Assembly (NCBI RefSeq): GCF_023955655.1
Contig: NZ_JAMXHT010000005.1
Span: forward strand, 1-64,000
DNA length: 64,000 nt
Reading direction: 5' to 3'
Source: Ralstonia soli
Lineage (GTDB): Bacteria > Pseudomonadota > Gammaproteobacteria > Burkholderiales > Burkholderiaceae
Shown here: positions 56,852 to 63,890 of the stretch, in pieces
Numbering within the stretch: the stretch's first letter is position 1
Layout: every line of letters starts with the position of its first letter
Position numbers and translations under genes: made by a program
The notes under the pieces: generated by a model
What the model was told of the DNA's origin: nothing
Database searches by the model: none
The model's input: the letters and a program-made list of their open reading frames with translations, nothing else

Positions 56852-57706
56852 TCAGCTCGCGCCGCCCTTCATCGCGCCAGCGGCGGGTTCGGATGCAGGT
56901 GCCGCCGGTGCTGGCGTGGTCACCGCAGGCGCCGAAGCCGGTGCAGGCTCAGCAGGCGCCTTCACTGCCGGAGCCGCAGGCGTAGCGGCCGGTGCCGGCG
57001 TAGCAGCCGGCGCTGAAGCAGGCGCGGCCACCGGCACAGGCGGCGCGGCCGGCGTGGGCACCACGGGCGTCGTCATCTTCATCGGCTCGCCCTGCGGCGT
57101 GGGAGCGGGCTCGGGCAGCGGGGCCACGTGTTCCTTCTCCGCCGCCTTGGCGACCTTGTGGTCGCGGCGCGCCGGGTCGATCTTCAGGAAGTGGTCCACC
57201 AGGTTGAAATAGCGCTCGTAGAACACGCCTGCGGGAATCGTCTCGCTGGCCACCTTCACCATCGAATCGTCACCCGAGCCAATGGGCAGCGACACCGAGC
57301 CCAGAATGCTCAACCCCACGCTGGCCGATGTGCTCGTCTTCTTGAGCGAGTAGCGGTCTTGCACCGCGTTCACATAGGCCGTGCTCGACGTGCCGTCGAC
57401 ATTGGCCTCTGCGCACACCACGTGGAACGAGATCACCACGTGCGAATCGTTGCTCGGCTGGAAATTCTTGCTGCCGTCGATCGTGTCTGGGCGCGGCGAG
57501 CTCGACACATACCCCTGGCTCAGCAGCGCCCGGCGCGCCGCCTCGCACGTCGCGTCAGATTTGGCGTGGAACGTGCGCGCATAGGGGCTGGCCGTCGCAT
57601 CGAACTGCTCCTGCTGATACAGCGGCGTGGGCGCGGAGCTGCACGCAGCCAGGGCGGCAACGGCAACAGCGCACAAAACGGACAACTGACGGAGGCGGTA
57701 GGGCAT
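56852..57706 (-). CDS. DUF2242 family lipoprotein
   Basis: 284 residues from ATG 57706. A lipoprotein signal ends in VAALAAC. The DUF2242 core (about 30-185) includes DATASPYARTFHAKSDATCEAARRALLSQGY, VVISFHVVCAEAN, AYVNAVQDRYSLKKTSTSASVGLS-like elements and YERYFNLVDHFLK. The last 85 residues are an Ala/Pro/Val repeat-like tail that probably spans the periplasm or is disordered. Function unknown; probably periplasmic-facing outer-membrane lipoprotein. It marks the last clearly core gene before the AT-richer segment. Confidence 0.82.
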   Translation of the reverse strand: MPYRLRQLSVLCAVAVAALAACSSAPTPLYQQEQFDATASPYARTFHAKSDATCEAARRALLSQGYVSSSPRPDTIDGSKNFQPSNDSHVVISFHVVCAEANVDGTSSTAYVNAVQDRYSLKKTSTSASVGLSILGSVSLPIGSGDDSMVKVASETIPAGVFYERYFNLVDHFLKIDPARRDHKVAKAAEKEHVAPLPEPAPTPQGEPMKMTTPVVPTPAAPPVPVAAPASAPAATPAPAATPAAPAVKAPAEPAPASAPAVTTPAPAAPASEPAAGAMKGGAS

Positions 57707-58235
57707 GGCGTTGGTCAAATGGGCTCGGCCGGGTGGTGGGCCCGATGTGTCATCAGGCAGCGGCCCGGATGCCACTGCGGGTGCGGCGCAAGTTTTGTGC
57801 GCGGCAGGCGGTGGCGGCGTGGACGGGTGGCCGGGCGACATTATAAGTTTGTCGGGTGACAGGTCGCCGCGTTGATGGCGACGTCTGGCGCATGGAGTCT
57901 CTCAGGTACGCCAGAGCAGCGCGACTTCCTCCGACCCGCCTACCACTGCAAGGCCCTTCGGCCCGGCACGTCCTCCTCCAACCGGTTGACATCAATGCAA
58001 CCTCCCGGCGCGACGGCGATATTCAGCGGTTCAGCGTTGGTTAATGCATTCCGTGGGCGGGGATTGTCGGCGTATATCGAGTTCTTTGTCGCCAAAATAA
58101 ATGTTTAAGAACCCTACCGTCGAGGGCTTTCCAATCCCAAATCGTGGGTTATGCTGTTCCCCACGAAAATAAAGGCGTTGATAACCAAATCGGATTATAA
58201 AAAAGCGCTTAATCCAAAATATGTAGAGGGGCAGT
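57707..58235. promoter_or_regulatory. Transition region upstream of the NERD-helicase gene
   Basis: This 529-bp gap goes from high GC to clearly AT-rich DNA after about 58060. TCGTGGG (58142-58148) and CCCACGA (58160-58166) form a 7-bp inverted repeat. An AT-rich stretch at 58167-58225 (with TTGATA and TATAAAAAA elements, badly spaced) precedes the GAGGGG ribosome site of the helicase gene. No gene is seen. It may contain the left edge of a genomic island. Confidence 0.45.
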
Positions 58236-60077
58236 ATGGCGACACTCATCCCCAGTCTGAATAGCTGCCTGGGGCGCATGACCTCGGGCGAGAAGCGCTT
58301 TGCCCGGCGGCTCGAAGCGGCGCTTGAGGACGATTATCTGTGCTGGTACGACGTGACGGTCGGCATTAAGCGCAGGCGGCCAGATTTCCTGATTCTGAAT
58401 CCGCACCGGGGTTTGCTGGCGCTGGAAGTCAAGGACTGGAAAATCGGCAGCATTATCCGGCTCGACCCGCAACTGGTGGAGGCCAATTTTGACGGCCGGC
58501 TCGTCAAGGATGTGAACCCGCTGCTCAAATCGCGCGAGTTCATGACGGCCACGGTGGATATGCTCAAGCGCGACCCGCTGTTGGTTCATCCGGCCGACAG
58601 TAAATATGCCGGCAAGCTGTGCATGCCCTACGGCCACGGGCTGGTGTTGCCCAATATCTCGCGCCAGGAGTTCGAGACCTCCGGCATGCAAGACGTGATG
58701 CCCGGTCGCCTCGTCATCTGCAAAGACGAGATGACGGATTCAGCCGACCCTGAAGCATTCCAGCAGCGCTTGTGGGACATGTTCACCCAGCCCTTCCGCT
58801 GCTTGCTCCAACTGCCGCAGATCGATCGCATCCGCTGGCACCTCTTCCCCGATGTGCGCATCGTCAGCCGACAAGGCAGCCTGTTCGAGGCCGATGACGA
58901 ACCGACCACGCAAGACGCCCGCTCTGCCATCCCTGACCTTATCCGCGTGATGGACTTGCAGCAGGAGCAACTCGCCCGAAGCCTGGGCGATGGGCACCGT
59001 GTCATCCACGGCGTGGCGGGCTCCGGCAAAACGATGATCCTTGGCTATCGCGCCGAGTACCTTGCGCAAGCATCCGCCAAGCCCGTGCTTGTGCTGTGCT
59101 TCAACCGCGCGCTCGCGCAAAAGCTTGCCGGGTGGATGGAACACAAGGGGCTGTCGCAAAAGGTGCACGTGCGCACCTTCCACAGTTGGTGCTCCGACAT
59201 GGCAACGACCTACCAACTCGACAAGCCGCCTGTCATGCGGCGCGACGAAGACTACGCCGTGCTGGTGCAGAACGTGATCGACGGCGTGAACCGGGGCCAG
59301 GTGCCTGCCGGGCAATACAGCGCGCTGCTGCTCGACGAAGGCCACGACTTTGACCCCGCATGGCTGCGACTCGTCGTGCAGATGGTCGACCCGGAGACCA
59401 ACTCCGTGCTCGTCATGTACGACAGCGCGCAAGACATCTATCAGAAGTCTCGCAAGCTCAAGTTCAGTTTTTCCAGCGTAGGCATTCAGGCGCGGGGGCG
59501 CACCACCATCCTCAAGCTCAACTACCGCAACAGCGCTGAAGTGCTGGCCGTGGCGTATGCGTTTGCCAATGACCTGCTGACCGCCGAAGAGGCCGAAGAA
59601 GACGGCGCGCCGCTCATCCTCCCGCAAACGGCGGGGCGGCACGGCAAGGCGCCGGTGTTTATTCGTCTGCCCAATTTCAAGGCCGAGTTGGACTACGTGG
59701 CAGATCGTCTGCGTGCTGCCAACGAAGCGGGCACGCCTTGGCGCGATATGGCGGTGCTCACGTACCTCAAGGCGCAGCGCATCGACGTGGTCAGCCATCT
59801 GCAAGCGGCCAAGATTCCCGTGAGCAACGGTCTGAGCAAGCACGACAAAGACAGCGTGAATGTGCTCACGCTACATGGCAGCAAGGGGCTGGAATTTCCG
59901 TTTGTGGCGATCCCCGGTTTGGGGCAGTTGCCGCTTGCGAGCCATGACGCGAATGAGCAGGCGCGCGTGCTGTATGTGGGGATGACGCGGGCGATGAATG
60001 AATTGGTGATGACGGCGGATCGGGATTCTGAGTTTGCGGCGAGGGTGGGGGAAGCTTGTGGGAGGTTGGTGGCGTGA
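58236..60077 (+). CDS. NERD nuclease-domain/UvrD-like SF1 helicase
   Basis: 613 residues. The N-terminal NERD domain (about 15-130) shows a PD-(D/E)xK nuclease pattern: RPDFLILNP (Asp50) and LLALEVKDWK (Glu64-x-Lys66). The SF1 helicase core follows: Walker A IHGVAGSGKTMILGY (259-266), FNRALAQKLAGW, TFHSWCSDMA, Walker B SALLLDEGHDFDP (DEGH 367-370), LKLNYRNSAEV, LTLHGSKGLEFPFVAIPG and LYVGMTRAMNELV. All helicase motifs are intact. NERD-helicase fusions and UvrD-like helicases occur in defence islands (compare GajB of Gabija, and Nhi). The RloC-like gene follows after 138 bp on the same strand, and both probably form one system. Confidence 0.88.
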   Translation: MATLIPSLNSCLGRMTSGEKRFARRLEAALEDDYLCWYDVTVGIKRRRPDFLILNPHRGLLALEVKDWKIGSIIRLDPQLVEANFDGRLVKDVNPLLKSREFMTATVDMLKRDPLLVHPADSKYAGKLCMPYGHGLVLPNISRQEFETSGMQDVMPGRLVICKDEMTDSADPEAFQQRLWDMFTQPFRCLLQLPQIDRIRWHLFPDVRIVSRQGSLFEADDEPTTQDARSAIPDLIRVMDLQQEQLARSLGDGHRVIHGVAGSGKTMILGYRAEYLAQASAKPVLVLCFNRALAQKLAGWMEHKGLSQKVHVRTFHSWCSDMATTYQLDKPPVMRRDEDYAVLVQNVIDGVNRGQVPAGQYSALLLDEGHDFDPAWLRLVVQMVDPETNSVLVMYDSAQDIYQKSRKLKFSFSSVGIQARGRTTILKLNYRNSAEVLAVAYAFANDLLTAEEAEEDGAPLILPQTAGRHGKAPVFIRLPNFKAELDYVADRLRAANEAGTPWRDMAVLTYLKAQRIDVVSHLQAAKIPVSNGLSKHDKDSVNVLTLHGSKGLEFPFVAIPGLGQLPLASHDANEQARVLYVGMTRAMNELVMTADRDSEFAARVGEACGRLVA

Positions 60078-60215
60078 AGGACTTTTTTGCGCTCAGTTAG
60101 CGATATGGTTCGCAAGCATCGCCATTGGTCGAGTCTTTAATTCTTGGTTTAGGCTTATGGAGCCAAGTGGATTTATATCTGCTGGCCAGAGGGCCACTAG
60201 AGGGGGAATGAGCCG

Positions 60216-62642
60216 GTGATCAGTCAGATTGACATAGCGAGCTTTGGTAGCTTCCAAGGTTTGGAGTGGAAAAAGACCGTTCGGGACAACGGAAAAAACG
60301 TCAAGCTCTTCCAGCGTTTGAACATCCTCTATGGACGCAACTACTCTGGAAAGACGACTCTCTCCCGTGTTTTTCGTGCGCTGGAGACGCGCAGGCTCCC
60401 CCTGAACTATGTGGGCTCGTCCTTCACCGTAACTGGTGAAAAAGGTGCAGTCACCGATGCCGACCTGCTGACCCATAACTATGACGTGCGGGTCTACAAC
60501 CGCGATTTCGTGACAGACAACCTGAGCTTCCTAGTCAATCAGGAGGCCGGCGGCGTTATCAAGACCTTCGCCATCGTCGGTGAGCAGAACAAGGAGATTG
60601 ACGACGCCATCACTGCCATCGAGGCCAAGCTTGGCAGTGTGGAAGGCAAGGCCGGGCTGCGCTTTGATCTGGAGGCCAAGAGGAAAGAGCGCGATCGTAC
60701 CAAAGCTGCTCACAGCACGGCTTTGAACCGTTTGGAAGACAAACTGCGCTCGCATGCTGCTGAGAAGATCAAGAAGAACCCCCTGTATCTCGCGCCCATC
60801 TACACCATCGAACACATCAGACGCGATATTGCTTCCACCAGTAAGCCCGGCTTCATCGCACTGACCACCGAGGAACAAGCAGGCAAACTCAACTTGCTCA
60901 AGCAGGAAGCCCTACCTGACATTACGGGCACTCTGGCCATCACCCTCAAACTGGAGTCGCTGAGGGCCACTGCCGAACCTCTTCTCTCCAGGGCGATTAC
61001 ACCTACCAAAGCGATTGAAGAACTACTTAAGGACAGCGCTTTGCAGCTTTGGGTCAAGCAAGGTATGGGGCTCCACCGAGGCAAGCGGGAAACCTGCGCT
61101 TTCTGCCGACAGGGTTTGCCGCACGACATTTGGCAGGTGCTGGACGAACATTTCAGCAAAGAGTCTGGCGACCTGGAAACAGCCTTGGATGCTGCTCTCG
61201 CGTCAGTCACGGACGAGATCAAGTCCATCGCTGGACTCAATTTCTTCACAGGTGCTCAGTTTTATGCGGATGAGCGTACCGCGTTTGAATCGAGCAGCAA
61301 GGCGCTATCTGAAGCACTTGGCGTCTACAAGAAAGACTTGGAAGCCCTGAAGAAATCGATTGAGACTCGAAAGGACAATCTCTTCCAACCCGTGTTTCTG
61401 AAGGCGCCTTCGCATGACGCCAAGGAGATCGAGAAGCATGTTCAGGCCATCAACGCGCTGATTGTTACGAGCAACGGCAAGACGAAGACCCTGGAAAATG
61501 ACAAGACCTCTGCCAGAGATGCACTTCGCCTGGCTGACGTGTTCGCGTTTGCTGATGCGATCACCTATGACACGGAGGTTGCCCGCATAGCCAACCTCAG
61601 GATCGACGCCGACACAGCAGGCACGGCCTATACGGACGCAGAAAAAGAGATCCGTGACGCCGAGGCGGAAGTCCAAGCTTTGAGAGCCAAGCAAAAAGAT
61701 GAGCGCAAGGGGGCCGAGCGAGTCAACTCTTTGCTCAGCAACTTCTTCGGCCATGACGGTATCAAGCTTGAGGCCCGTGACGGCGCAGACAAAGCCACGG
61801 TCAAGTTTGAGATCACACGAAACGGCAAGGCTGCGTACAACCTCAGCGAAGGCGAGTGCAGCCTGATTGCCTTCTGCTATTTCATTGCCAAACTAGACGA
61901 ACCGGAGAGCAAAGGCAAGGAATTGATCATCTATATTGATGATCCAATTTCCAGCTTGGACGGAAACCATATCTTCTTCATGTTTAGCTTGATTGAGAGC
62001 TTGATTGCCAAGCCGGTTAAGAATCCAGACGGTTCAAACGCCTATCGCTACAAGCAGCTTTTTATATCTACCCATAATCTTGATTTTCTGAAATATCTCA
62101 AGCGCCTATCCATTCCGAAGAAGAAGATCCCCGCTGGTGAAGGAAAGACAAAAAGTGTCGATGACCACGAGCATTTCATGATTGAGAGAAACGGCGCTTC
62201 AAGCAACATCCTGCTTATGCCGTCTTATCTAAAAGACTACATAACCGAGTTTCATTATCTATTCCACCAAATCTACAAGTGCAAAGATCAAGCTGCGGCA
62301 GCAGATAGTCATGAGCCATTTTTTGGATTTGGCAACAATCTGCGAAAGTTTCTAGAAGCTTTTTTGTTTTTCAAGTACCCTTATCATGATGACAAGAACG
62401 ATGCCTTTGAGCGGATCAAGAAATTCTTTGGAGAGGAGGAAGATACGGCAGTTGCACTGGTCAACCGCCTTAACAACGAGTTTTCGCACCTAGAAGCTGT
62501 CCCAGACAGAGGTTTTAAGCCGGTGGAAATTCCTGAGATCGCCAAGGTTGCTAACTATGTCTTGGACAAGATTTACGATGCAGATAGGGTGCAATATAAC
62601 GCTCTGTTGAAGAGCATTGGAGAGCCTGAGCGAGTAGGGTAA
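60216..62642 (+). CDS. rloC: RloC-like ABC ATPase with zinc hook and anticodon-nuclease triad
   Basis: 808 residues. ATPase elements: Walker A LYGRNYSGKTTLSRVF (40-47), the AAA_13-type VRVYNRDFV (91-99), signature YNLSEGECSLIAF (541-553), Walker B IIYIDDPISSLDGNH (571-585) and switch His in FISTHNLDF (H620). A coiled coil runs from about 125 to 500 with CAFC (Cys294-Cys297) near its middle, the zinc-hook arrangement of RloC. The C-terminal region has R710-x3-E714 (LRKFLEAF) and His758 (NNEFSHLE), matching the R-x3-E...H triad of PrrC/RloC tRNA anticodon nucleases. Base composition falls to about 40% GC near 62040-62400, unlike the core genes. Expected action: cleave tRNA after DNA damage or phage counter-attack and stop growth. 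No restriction-modification genes are nearby. Confidence 0.83.
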   Translation: MISQIDIASFGSFQGLEWKKTVRDNGKNVKLFQRLNILYGRNYSGKTTLSRVFRALETRRLPLNYVGSSFTVTGEKGAVTDADLLTHNYDVRVYNRDFVTDNLSFLVNQEAGGVIKTFAIVGEQNKEIDDAITAIEAKLGSVEGKAGLRFDLEAKRKERDRTKAAHSTALNRLEDKLRSHAAEKIKKNPLYLAPIYTIEHIRRDIASTSKPGFIALTTEEQAGKLNLLKQEALPDITGTLAITLKLESLRATAEPLLSRAITPTKAIEELLKDSALQLWVKQGMGLHRGKRETCAFCRQGLPHDIWQVLDEHFSKESGDLETALDAALASVTDEIKSIAGLNFFTGAQFYADERTAFESSSKALSEALGVYKKDLEALKKSIETRKDNLFQPVFLKAPSHDAKEIEKHVQAINALIVTSNGKTKTLENDKTSARDALRLADVFAFADAITYDTEVARIANLRIDADTAGTAYTDAEKEIRDAEAEVQALRAKQKDERKGAERVNSLLSNFFGHDGIKLEARDGADKATVKFEITRNGKAAYNLSEGECSLIAFCYFIAKLDEPESKGKELIIYIDDPISSLDGNHIFFMFSLIESLIAKPVKNPDGSNAYRYKQLFISTHNLDFLKYLKRLSIPKKKIPAGEGKTKSVDDHEHFMIERNGASSNILLMPSYLKDYITEFHYLFHQIYKCKDQAAAADSHEPFFGFGNNLRKFLEAFLFFKYPYHDDKNDAFERIKKFFGEEEDTAVALVNRLNNEFSHLEAVPDRGFKPVEIPEIAKVANYVLDKIYDADRVQYNALLKSIGEPERVG

Positions 62643-63018
62643 GAGATCGCTTCCAATGTCCAATTGTCGGACAGAGGCCGCCACATAAATCGATCTATGC
62701 CGAGTGACTGTGACGGGTCGTTAGCGGACGCTGCGCGAGAGCACGGCGAGATATCCCGGAACTTGCCCCAGAACCACCCCACCCGCTAAACTCCCCCCGC
62801 TGCGCAAACAATCGCAGCCGAGACTGCAATCTCGACCGAAATGACCGGAAGAAACTCAAGTTTCTACCGCTGTCGTCGTTCGCCTATACGGGCGGGCCCG
62901 ACAGGGAGGGCTTCGGCCCTGCCGTCTTTGTCATTTCGTCGGTATTGCAGACCTTGTCGTGTGCCCGCCCACCCTCCCAGGTGGGTGGCTCCCCACTCAA
63001 TCAGCAGAGGGCAAGACA
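62643..63018. other. 376-bp gap after the RloC-like gene
   Basis: GC content rises again here. No credible gene was found. A GGGC-UUCG-GCCC hairpin at about 62907-62920, followed by TGCCGTCTTTGTCATTT, may be a terminator. TGTCC/GGACA near 62657-62673 is a weak hairpin. AGAGGG at 63006-63011 would serve the small reading frame at 63019. Confidence 0.4.
62903..62936 (+). terminator. UUCG-loop hairpin, possible terminator
   Basis: AGGGC (62907-62911), loop TTCG, GCCCT (62916-62920), extended imperfectly on both sides and followed by a T-rich but interrupted stretch. The stable tetraloop argues for a functional RNA hairpin. Confidence 0.45.
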
Positions 63019-63123
63019 ATGGACCAACCGACCCAAGCCGTTCCCACCCCAAGCGGGCATCGCCCCGCACTCTCGCCTCCCACCCGCATCGCGCACCACC
63101 CTCCCTCCGGAGGCGCCCGATGA
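63019..63123 (+). CDS. 34-aa small ORF coupled to the next gene
   Basis: ATG 63019 with AGAGGG eight bases upstream; the product (MDQPTQAVPTPSGHRPAL, then Pro/Arg-rich) ends in a TGA that overlaps the ATG of the following gene (ATGA). It may be a leader peptide controlling translation of the 92-aa gene, or only a chance frame. Confidence 0.3.
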   Translation: MDQPTQAVPTPSGHRPALSPPTRIAHHPPSGGAR

Positions 63124-63398
63124 CCCTCGAAACCAAACGCGAATACCTGCAAGGCGCCCTCGGCGCGCGGGATTACCTGCGTCGCTCGCAAGCGGGCCTG
63201 AAGCTGCATCGGCAGTTCCAGCCCAAGACGCTGCGTTGGGAATACCAGCTCCACATCCAGGGCAAGCCCGCCGAATACCAGGCCGGGTTTCTGGATGCGA
63301 TTGGCGCGTACATGTTGACCACGCTGGAGGGCGTGCTGGTTGACCTGTACCGGTGGGAAGTCCTGCGCGTGCTCGAACGCGCGAATCACCAGAACTAA
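63120..63398 (+). CDS. Hypothetical protein, 92 aa
   Basis: ATG 63120 with GGAGG seven bases upstream (CCGGAGGCGCCCG). The product is basic at the N-terminus (TLETKREYLQGALGARDYL, RRSQAGLKLHRQF) and then mixed alpha/beta with QLHIQGKPAEYQAGFLDAIGA and a C-terminal amphipathic helix. No family was recognised. Size, isolated position and neighbouring repeat DNA suggest a mobile-element or phage-derived gene, but there is no direct proof. Confidence 0.6.
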   Translation: MTLETKREYLQGALGARDYLRRSQAGLKLHRQFQPKTLRWEYQLHIQGKPAEYQAGFLDAIGAYMLTTLEGVLVDLYRWEVLRVLERANHQN

Positions 63399-63479
63399 AA
63401 GAACCGCAGTGAACGCCACCCCGAGACGGGCGGGGGAGCGACGGGCCAGATGCGCCCAATCAGAACGTGACGCAGCCGA

Positions 63480-63890
63480 CGCTCAAAGCGTCATGGACGG
63501 GGCTCAGAGCCCCATGCACGAGCCTCGAAGGCGCGATCGCCGAGCAAGAAGCCTCAGCCGTCAGGCTCGAACACGCGAGCGCGAGTCTCCAAGGCGCAAG
63601 CGCCGAGCAAAAAGCGCGGACGTTGGCACTCAAAGCCCCGACCATCGAGCAAAAAAGTGTCGACCGCCGAGCCCAAAGACTCAATGGCCGAGCAAAACGT
63701 GTCGAGCGCCGGGCGCAAAGCCTCAAGCGTCGAGTTCGGATCGCCATGCCACCCGAGCAAAAAGCCCCGAACGTGCGTCTCCGAGGCTGGGAAGCGATGC
63801 CCGGAGCCCCGCGCGCCGAGCTCAGAACCTCAACTGCCGGGCTCAGAAGCGCAAACATGGAGCGCAGGGCCCCATGCACGGCACGCACGC
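63480..63890. repeat. Degenerate array of about 21-bp direct repeats
   Basis: About 19 consecutive units of 20-23 bp, each beginning GAGC or GGGC and roughly following GAGCtCaaAGCcccaancgCC, fill this stretch. Units are variable; examples are GAGCAAAAAGCGCGGACG, GAGCCCAAAGACTCAATGGCC and GAGCTCAGAACCTCAACTGCC. The first units are small perfect hairpins (GACGCT-CAA-AGCGTC, GGGGCT-CAG-AGCCCC). All reading frames are partly open because 21 is a multiple of 3, but no frame has a start with a ribosome site, so it is listed as repeat DNA rather than a gene. Confidence 0.75.

Follow-up and report, generated by a model that had tools for sequence, protein, structure and literature searches.

Introduction

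RloC is an anticodon nuclease whose cleavage of tRNA excises the wobble nucleotide. It was defined by Davidov and Kaufmann as a protein of 658–897 amino acids that combines PrrC-like ABC ATPase motifs, a CX2C zinc hook located in a helical insert and a C-proximal Arg-X3-Glu-X36-52-His triad, with Ser often preceding the His (in the definition section of PMC2610378). Their survey counts give a GUG start for 13 of 70 RloC genes and linkage to a type I or III restriction-modification (R-M) locus for only 8 of 72 (Davidov and Kaufmann 2008, PMC2610378). As stated in PMC3710099, RloC and PrrC have a C-terminal RNase part that is classed in the HEPN superfamily. According to the activation data in PMC3874168, other RloC proteins respond to linear DNA and to inducers of DNA breaks, and the Geobacillus kaustophilus protein (GkaRloC) requires linear DNA. 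A second point of reference is Gabija, described in PMC10952713 as the OLD/TOPRIM nuclease GajA acting with the UvrD helicase GajB. Two further references concern families of defence catalogues: PDC-S06 is termed an unpublished candidate in PMC11811056, and in PMC10910872 NERD and UvrD are spelled out in the legend of a figure that deals with putative CRISPR auxiliary genes.

Here, we analyse the first 64,000 nucleotides of the Ralstonia soli contig NZ_JAMXHT010000005.1 (hereafter, the window), in which a NERD-helicase gene (gene A) precedes an RloC-type gene (gene B). We consider it very probable that A and B are two autonomous defence genes that a defence hotspot in the chromosome carries as neighbouring cargo.

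Results

Genes A (58236..60077, + strand, 613 amino acids) and B (60216..62642, + strand, 808 amino acids, GTG start) are intact open reading frames on one strand, 138 bp apart (gap at 60078..60215). This is the arrangement that the initial annotation had described, and both it and the accompanying domain calls are confirmed by the reading frames and by Pfam matches to NERD and UvrD on A and to AAA_13 on B. The stretch that holds the two genes has a G+C content of 54–60% per 2 kb, as opposed to 64–70% elsewhere in the window (the last 2 kb excepted). For A, G+C is 61.6% and GC3 0.79; for B, the values are 51% and 0.62. Five host genes were measured for comparison: four lie at 69–70% G+C with a GC3 of 0.79–0.83, and one at 66% and 0.69. 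A phage-borne pair was rejected, as the viral contigs searched yielded no relative of A and one of B.

B has all the hallmarks of RloC for which we tested its sequence, and it is therefore RloC by every sequence criterion examined. Its 808 residues lie within the published size range, and the ABC ATPase motifs are present (Walker A GRNYSGKTT at residues 40–48, LSEGE at 543–547 and IDDP at 574). The helical insert that splits the ATPase carries the CX2C zinc hook, C294-A-F-C297, and the C-terminal HEPN/anticodon-nuclease triad reads R710-X3-E714-X43-H758, with S757 before the His. In an alignment of 38 sequences, namely the window's B and 37 homologues, some only ~25% identical, with duplicate places and shorter matches left out, both cysteines are kept in 38/38, R710 and E714 in 37/38, and S757 and H758 in 36/38; the rows that lack triad residues are L029, whose open frame is broken, and L035, which runs into a contig end. 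Over residues 23–783 B matches Pfam AAA_13 at 484 bits, and it matches the PADLOC family PDC-S06 (model PDLC04887) end to end at 1032 bits (residues 1–805). Thus, the RloC-like reading offered by the initial annotation holds for size, split ABC ATPase, CX2C hook and triad alike. An AlphaFold model of B (mean pLDDT 66, pTM 0.37) has a helical C-terminal part and, on both sides of the hook, long helices, at 148–186 before it and at 303–339, 351–387, 402–448 and 451–511 after. A Foldseek search with this model returned SMC/Rad50-like heads (best E 7e-4, with low TM-scores), a weak result that is nonetheless consistent with RloC; neither a single-sequence nor a profile search of solved structures gave a sequence match to B.

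The initial annotation had also portrayed RloC as usually tied to restriction systems, a generalization that is at odds with the 8 of 72 genes found at type I or III R-M loci in the survey cited above (PMC2610378). Its companion statement, that no restriction system is present here, stands for type I, the only type covered by our search: the window's genome, which is 99.92% complete, has no HSDR_N match. The linkage to a type Ic R-M locus that marks PrrC is consequently absent, and control of B in trans by a type I R-M enzyme is unlikely; PrrC-type control by such an enzyme was rejected on this basis.

Gene A encodes a NERD domain of the PD-(D/E)xK type joined to a UvrD/SF1 helicase (Pfam NERD 5e-9, UvrD_C 4e-21 and UvrD-helicase 7e-9). 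It gives a full-length match to the PADLOC family C3a187 'NERD+UvrD' (565 bits, residues 1–604 of 613), whereas its best GajB model reaches 76 bits. Among 29 aligned A sequences (duplicate places and shorter matches left out), the NERD residues D50, E64 and K66 are each kept in 28, and the SF1 residues G264-K265, D367-E368 and R585 in all 29. We take these residues to be the catalytic positions of their respective families. An AlphaFold model of A made without an alignment was not usable (pLDDT 38). The distribution of A is patchy: 10 of 200 family genomes, the window's own included, have a match above 500 bits, and 18 of 369 class genomes have one at 1e-90 or better. The 500-bit cut-off was applied in the family because any UvrD-type helicase scores at E 0.001, a threshold at which 195 of the 200 genomes were matched.

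Three plasmids with annotation carry A without B. A DUF6710 gene lies upstream of A in the Escherichia coli plasmid, an N-6 DNA methylase gene lies downstream on the opposite strand in the Vibrio harveyi plasmid, and in the Nostoc plasmid A comes after a type III-B CRISPR cmr cluster. The last of these neighbourhoods fits, without proving, a C3a187 label that points to type III CRISPR accessory genes, and from its name we presume that the label may denote such a family. If so, A could serve chiefly in DNA repair, or as a helicase-nuclease accessory to type III CRISPR, and not as a stand-alone defence gene, a reading that would also suit the appearance of NERD and UvrD in the figure legend on putative CRISPR auxiliary genes (PMC10910872). 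We regard it as fairly unlikely, given that no CRISPR genes were seen beside A in the E. coli and V. harveyi plasmid annotations (taken from PLSDB gene tables, which are incomplete), that A is as patchily distributed as the class counts indicate and that it sits in a defence hotspot here. A is most likely a defence enzyme that works alone, with DNA-unwinding and DNA-cutting activities predicted from its domains.

The initial annotation had gone on to join A and B into one combined system, in which the helicase-nuclease senses or processes foreign DNA and the RloC-like protein stops translation. In such a system, the NERD-helicase would cut or unwind invading DNA and the resulting ends would trigger the translation stop by the RloC protein. 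A neighbourhood search found no conserved adjacency of the two genes: of 36 B loci, one has A as its neighbour, and of 26 A loci, one has B; it is the same locus, L037, in both counts. These denominators comprise loci with at least 1.4 kb of sequence on the partner side, which excluded 6 of 42 distinct B loci and 2 of 28 distinct A loci. Loci of the window itself were not counted, nor were repeat copies of one place or matches that did not exceed 100 bits, which for A removed L115 and L116. Distant relatives are included among the 36 B loci, 23 of which are at least 65% identical. The partner was looked for over 1.4 to 10 kb, and many A loci cover only ~1.5 kb on each side, so that linkage further away would escape. 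No cluster of neighbours of A or of B was common to many of the loci compared.

L037, in a Limnohabitans draft genome, is the one place outside the window where A stands beside B, with both genes on one strand. Identity to the window is 79% for B and 52% for the better of the two frames into which A has broken. At the DNA level, resemblance to the window sets in only 18 bp before B, and thus the gap between A and B is not common to the two loci. The pairing has therefore arisen or persisted at least twice.

The edges of homology separate the two genes further. Window positions 60185–62720, which span B with 31 bp before and 78 bp after it, are 87–89% identical to loci in Paraburkholderia fungorum, Achromobacter xylosoxidans and Alcaligenes faecalis (L022–L024), none of which has A within 10 kb; homology to these closest B loci begins inside the gap, at 60185. 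Positions 58200–60063, with most of A and its start region, have an 85% identical counterpart in another genome of the genus (L042), where A is 89% identical and no B lies within 9 kb. A and B are separate DNA modules, with cut-offs at 60063 and 60185. On three plasmids that carry B, no A lies within 9 kb.

The B module has a 3′ tail (62643..62720) that is common to the three unrelated hosts, and homology stops sharply after these 78 bp, near GACGGGTC, in the window as in all three. On the Pseudomonas plasmid pG69 (L052), an RloC gene 83% identical to B adjoins a PLD/DUF1156/DUF3780/DUF499 set that is annotated as anti-phage.

Co-occurrence of A and B was counted in two sets of genomes. Of the 200 family genomes, 10 have A (cut-off 500 bits), 5 have B (cut-off 900 bits) and 2 have both, where 10 × 5 / 200 = 0.25 would be expected; the two are the window's own genome and G123, in which A and B lie on different contigs and A is followed by aroE-like and aldehyde dehydrogenase-like reading frames (judged from the starts of the frames). 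In the 369 class genomes, B or a relative at 1e-90 occurs in 6, and 2 genomes have it together with A, namely the window's own and G290, in which the two genes are far apart. Both counts are slightly above chance, but the window's genome was picked for having the pair. A literature search, the scope of which left out most subscription journals and bioRxiv, found no paper joining RloC with NERD or a NERD helicase.

This distribution speaks against a fixed partnership, and we consider a true two-gene system quite improbable. It would account for the adjacency on one strand here and in L037, for the single conserved leader that stands before both genes in the window, and for the linear DNA requirement published for GkaRloC (PMC3874168), as ends made by A would supply the trigger. 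Against it, the partner is missing from nearly all other loci, the A of L037 is broken and shares no gap with the window, and A and B differ in composition as well as in module edges. Two separate modules, each found without the other on three plasmids, are a better description than the single system originally proposed.

What the two genes have in common is their location. A genus-wide defence hotspot, at window positions 57871–62781, houses A and B, and its recognition is new to this study. The left flank (56852..57871, − strand) contains a gene at 56852–57841, also on the − strand, for a DUF2242 protein (6e-52). The stretch from 56852 to ~57870 is strongly matched in 15 of 16 genus genomes, counting the window's own, whereas in G144 the match is short and weak; the matches stop at 57859–57951 in the ten relatives that were compared. 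The right flank (62781..63449) is likewise matched in 15 of the 16, the exception being G144, a fragmented genome that is 90% complete. The same flanks enclose other DNA in 13 of 15 relatives (L083, L085–L092 and L148–L151), with 5.4–10.4 kb between them in L083 and L085–L092. In G096 (L084), only 243 bp separate the left flank from a 57-bp right match.

In each of the 13 occupied copies, a reading frame begins with MGRRRK or has it close to its start; in the one copy scanned (L085), this frame encodes an Mrr_cat nuclease with a zinc ribbon. Scans of chosen reading frames among the cargo gave PADLOC matches at 1e-5 or better in 9 of the 13 loci, and the defence genes differ from relative to relative: DRT RT_V in L086 and DRT RT_IV in L089, OLD-like genes in L087, L090 and L150, Hp1+Hp2 in L088, PARIS-like AriAB in L092 (722 bits), a weakly matching piece of a HamB-like DEAD helicase in L149 (50 bits) and bSEFIR in L151. 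Among the cargo frames scanned in L083, L085, L091 and L148 there was no PADLOC match; of these, L091 carries a PIN_8 domain and L148 a NACHT domain. No close copy of the Mrr gene occurs in the window's genome, where the best match is 33% identical over residues 148–255, and A and B seem to have taken the place of the Mrr gene and its cargo just behind the leader.

The defence context in which the initial annotation had placed A and B is therefore strengthened, since the same slot holds other defence cargo across the genus. It also weighs against a reading of A and B as remnants left by chance, in which two genes arrived by horizontal transfer and at least one of them has ceased to protect the host. 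The G+C content of the pair is still below that of the host, far below it for B, suggesting recent arrival, and other loci hold disrupted homologues, of A in L037 and of B in L029. Yet both frames are intact here, the conserved motif residues are present and the slot carries defence genes in most relatives, which makes such decay highly improbable.

A conserved leader of ~140 bp (58095..58235, + strand) precedes A. In an alignment of 11 sequences, it resembles the stretch before the Mrr-type nuclease gene in nine relatives and before A in L042. A sequence-only model of the leader, built from these 11, matched 18 places, spread over 14 of 16 genus genomes and including the training sequences themselves. 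The window's hotspot has one match, as does that of every one of the 13 occupied relatives; the hotspot leaders of G151, G058, G129 and G077 were not in the training set. The leader also stands before A in G043:C5, a training sequence, and there were three other matches, one of them weak. Copies of it precede other genes in G158:C88 and G137. The leader varies least at an inverted repeat, which in the window reads GGATTA-N12-TAATCC. A consensus fold has nearly no covariation support (covariation term −0.02, with one of nine pairs changed on both sides), and we therefore prefer a DNA operator or promoter part over an RNA fold; the inverted repeat is a possible operator. A scan of 57800–62900 found promoter sites no more numerous than in shuffled sequences. 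We infer that A is transcribed from the resident leader, and the shared strand and 138-bp gap would allow A and B to be co-transcribed.

These features could be combined into a stronger claim, that the Mrr gene and its partners were exchanged for A and B under the same leader or operator and that A and B now form two co-regulated tiers, with ends made by A triggering the RloC protein. We think this unlikely and retain the simpler reading, in which two autonomous genes occupy the slot.

The right flank contains a C4 antisense RNA (RF01695; 62884..62976, + strand; 49.9 bits, gathering score 45), which reaches or exceeds the gathering score in 4 of the 9 relatives whose hotspot was scanned (L086, L089, L091 and L092). 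C4 RNA, a phage-type family, also occurs in copies of the right flank elsewhere, in 6 of 6 genomes scanned (L123–L128); reading the starts of their frames by eye showed no obvious defence cargo at these copies. Directly after the right flank, at 63481–63726, there are imperfect 21/42-bp tandem repeats, and similar-looking translated repeats were noticed by eye ~10 kb further on (L041, 16597–17438).

Discussion

Our results support a model in which A and B are known kinds of gene in an unusual place, brought together by cargo exchange at the hotspot. The apparent new two-gene system most likely consists of two single-gene modules of known kinds. By analogy with other RloC proteins, the Rad50-like ABC ATPase and zinc-hook coiled coil of B would sense DNA ends and switch on the C-terminal HEPN RNase, which would cut tRNA anticodons and so halt translation in infected or damaged cells. 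A would attack DNA directly and independently of B. We infer that both act in phage defence, and it is possible that they cooperate, with ends produced by A triggering B.

The hotspot is a more useful finding than the A–B pair itself. With its leader, its Mrr-type gene in 13 of 13 occupied relatives and its changing neighbour, it offers a compact place in which to search for new defence genes, because several of the scanned cargo proteins have no PADLOC match. Gene B has its own interest: it keeps every hallmark residue of RloC, its genome gives no type I HsdR match, and the combination is a good setting in which to study the built-in DNA-end switch of RloC.

Comparison with known systems places each gene individually. 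The initial annotation likened the pair to Gabija, which it resembles in that a helicase gene adjoins an ABC-type ATPase gene; the helicase part of A has a weak similarity to GajB, at a score far below that for C3a187. The analogy fails for B, an AAA_13/HEPN protein with no OLD-like TOPRIM match at E 0.01; moreover, A carries a NERD domain, the adjacency is not conserved and no GajA appears among the best 25 of the 27 PADLOC families matched. A Gabija-like system was rejected because B lacks the TOPRIM match. PrrC with PrrI follows the same ABC-HEPN logic, and B matches PrrC weakly (47 bits), but B is about twice the size of PrrC and has a zinc hook, and its genome has no match to type I HsdR.

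The agreement is closer with the two PADLOC families, C3a187 and PDC-S06, which we take to be candidate families and not proven systems. A matches C3a187 end to end and its homologues share the NERD and SF1 motif residues, with no fixed partner in the loci compared. B likewise matches PDC-S06 over its whole length and differs from it in having A as a neighbour, PDC-S06 being, to judge from its name, a one-gene model. Finally, B shares with the described RloC proteins, including those of Acinetobacter baylyi and G. kaustophilus, the size, the split ABC ATPase, the CX2C hook, the R-X3-E-X36-52-H triad with Ser before the His, the GTG start and the absence of type I R-M linkage, and among the features compared, all of them features of sequence, B does not differ from RloC as it is characterized in PMC2610378 and PMC3874168.
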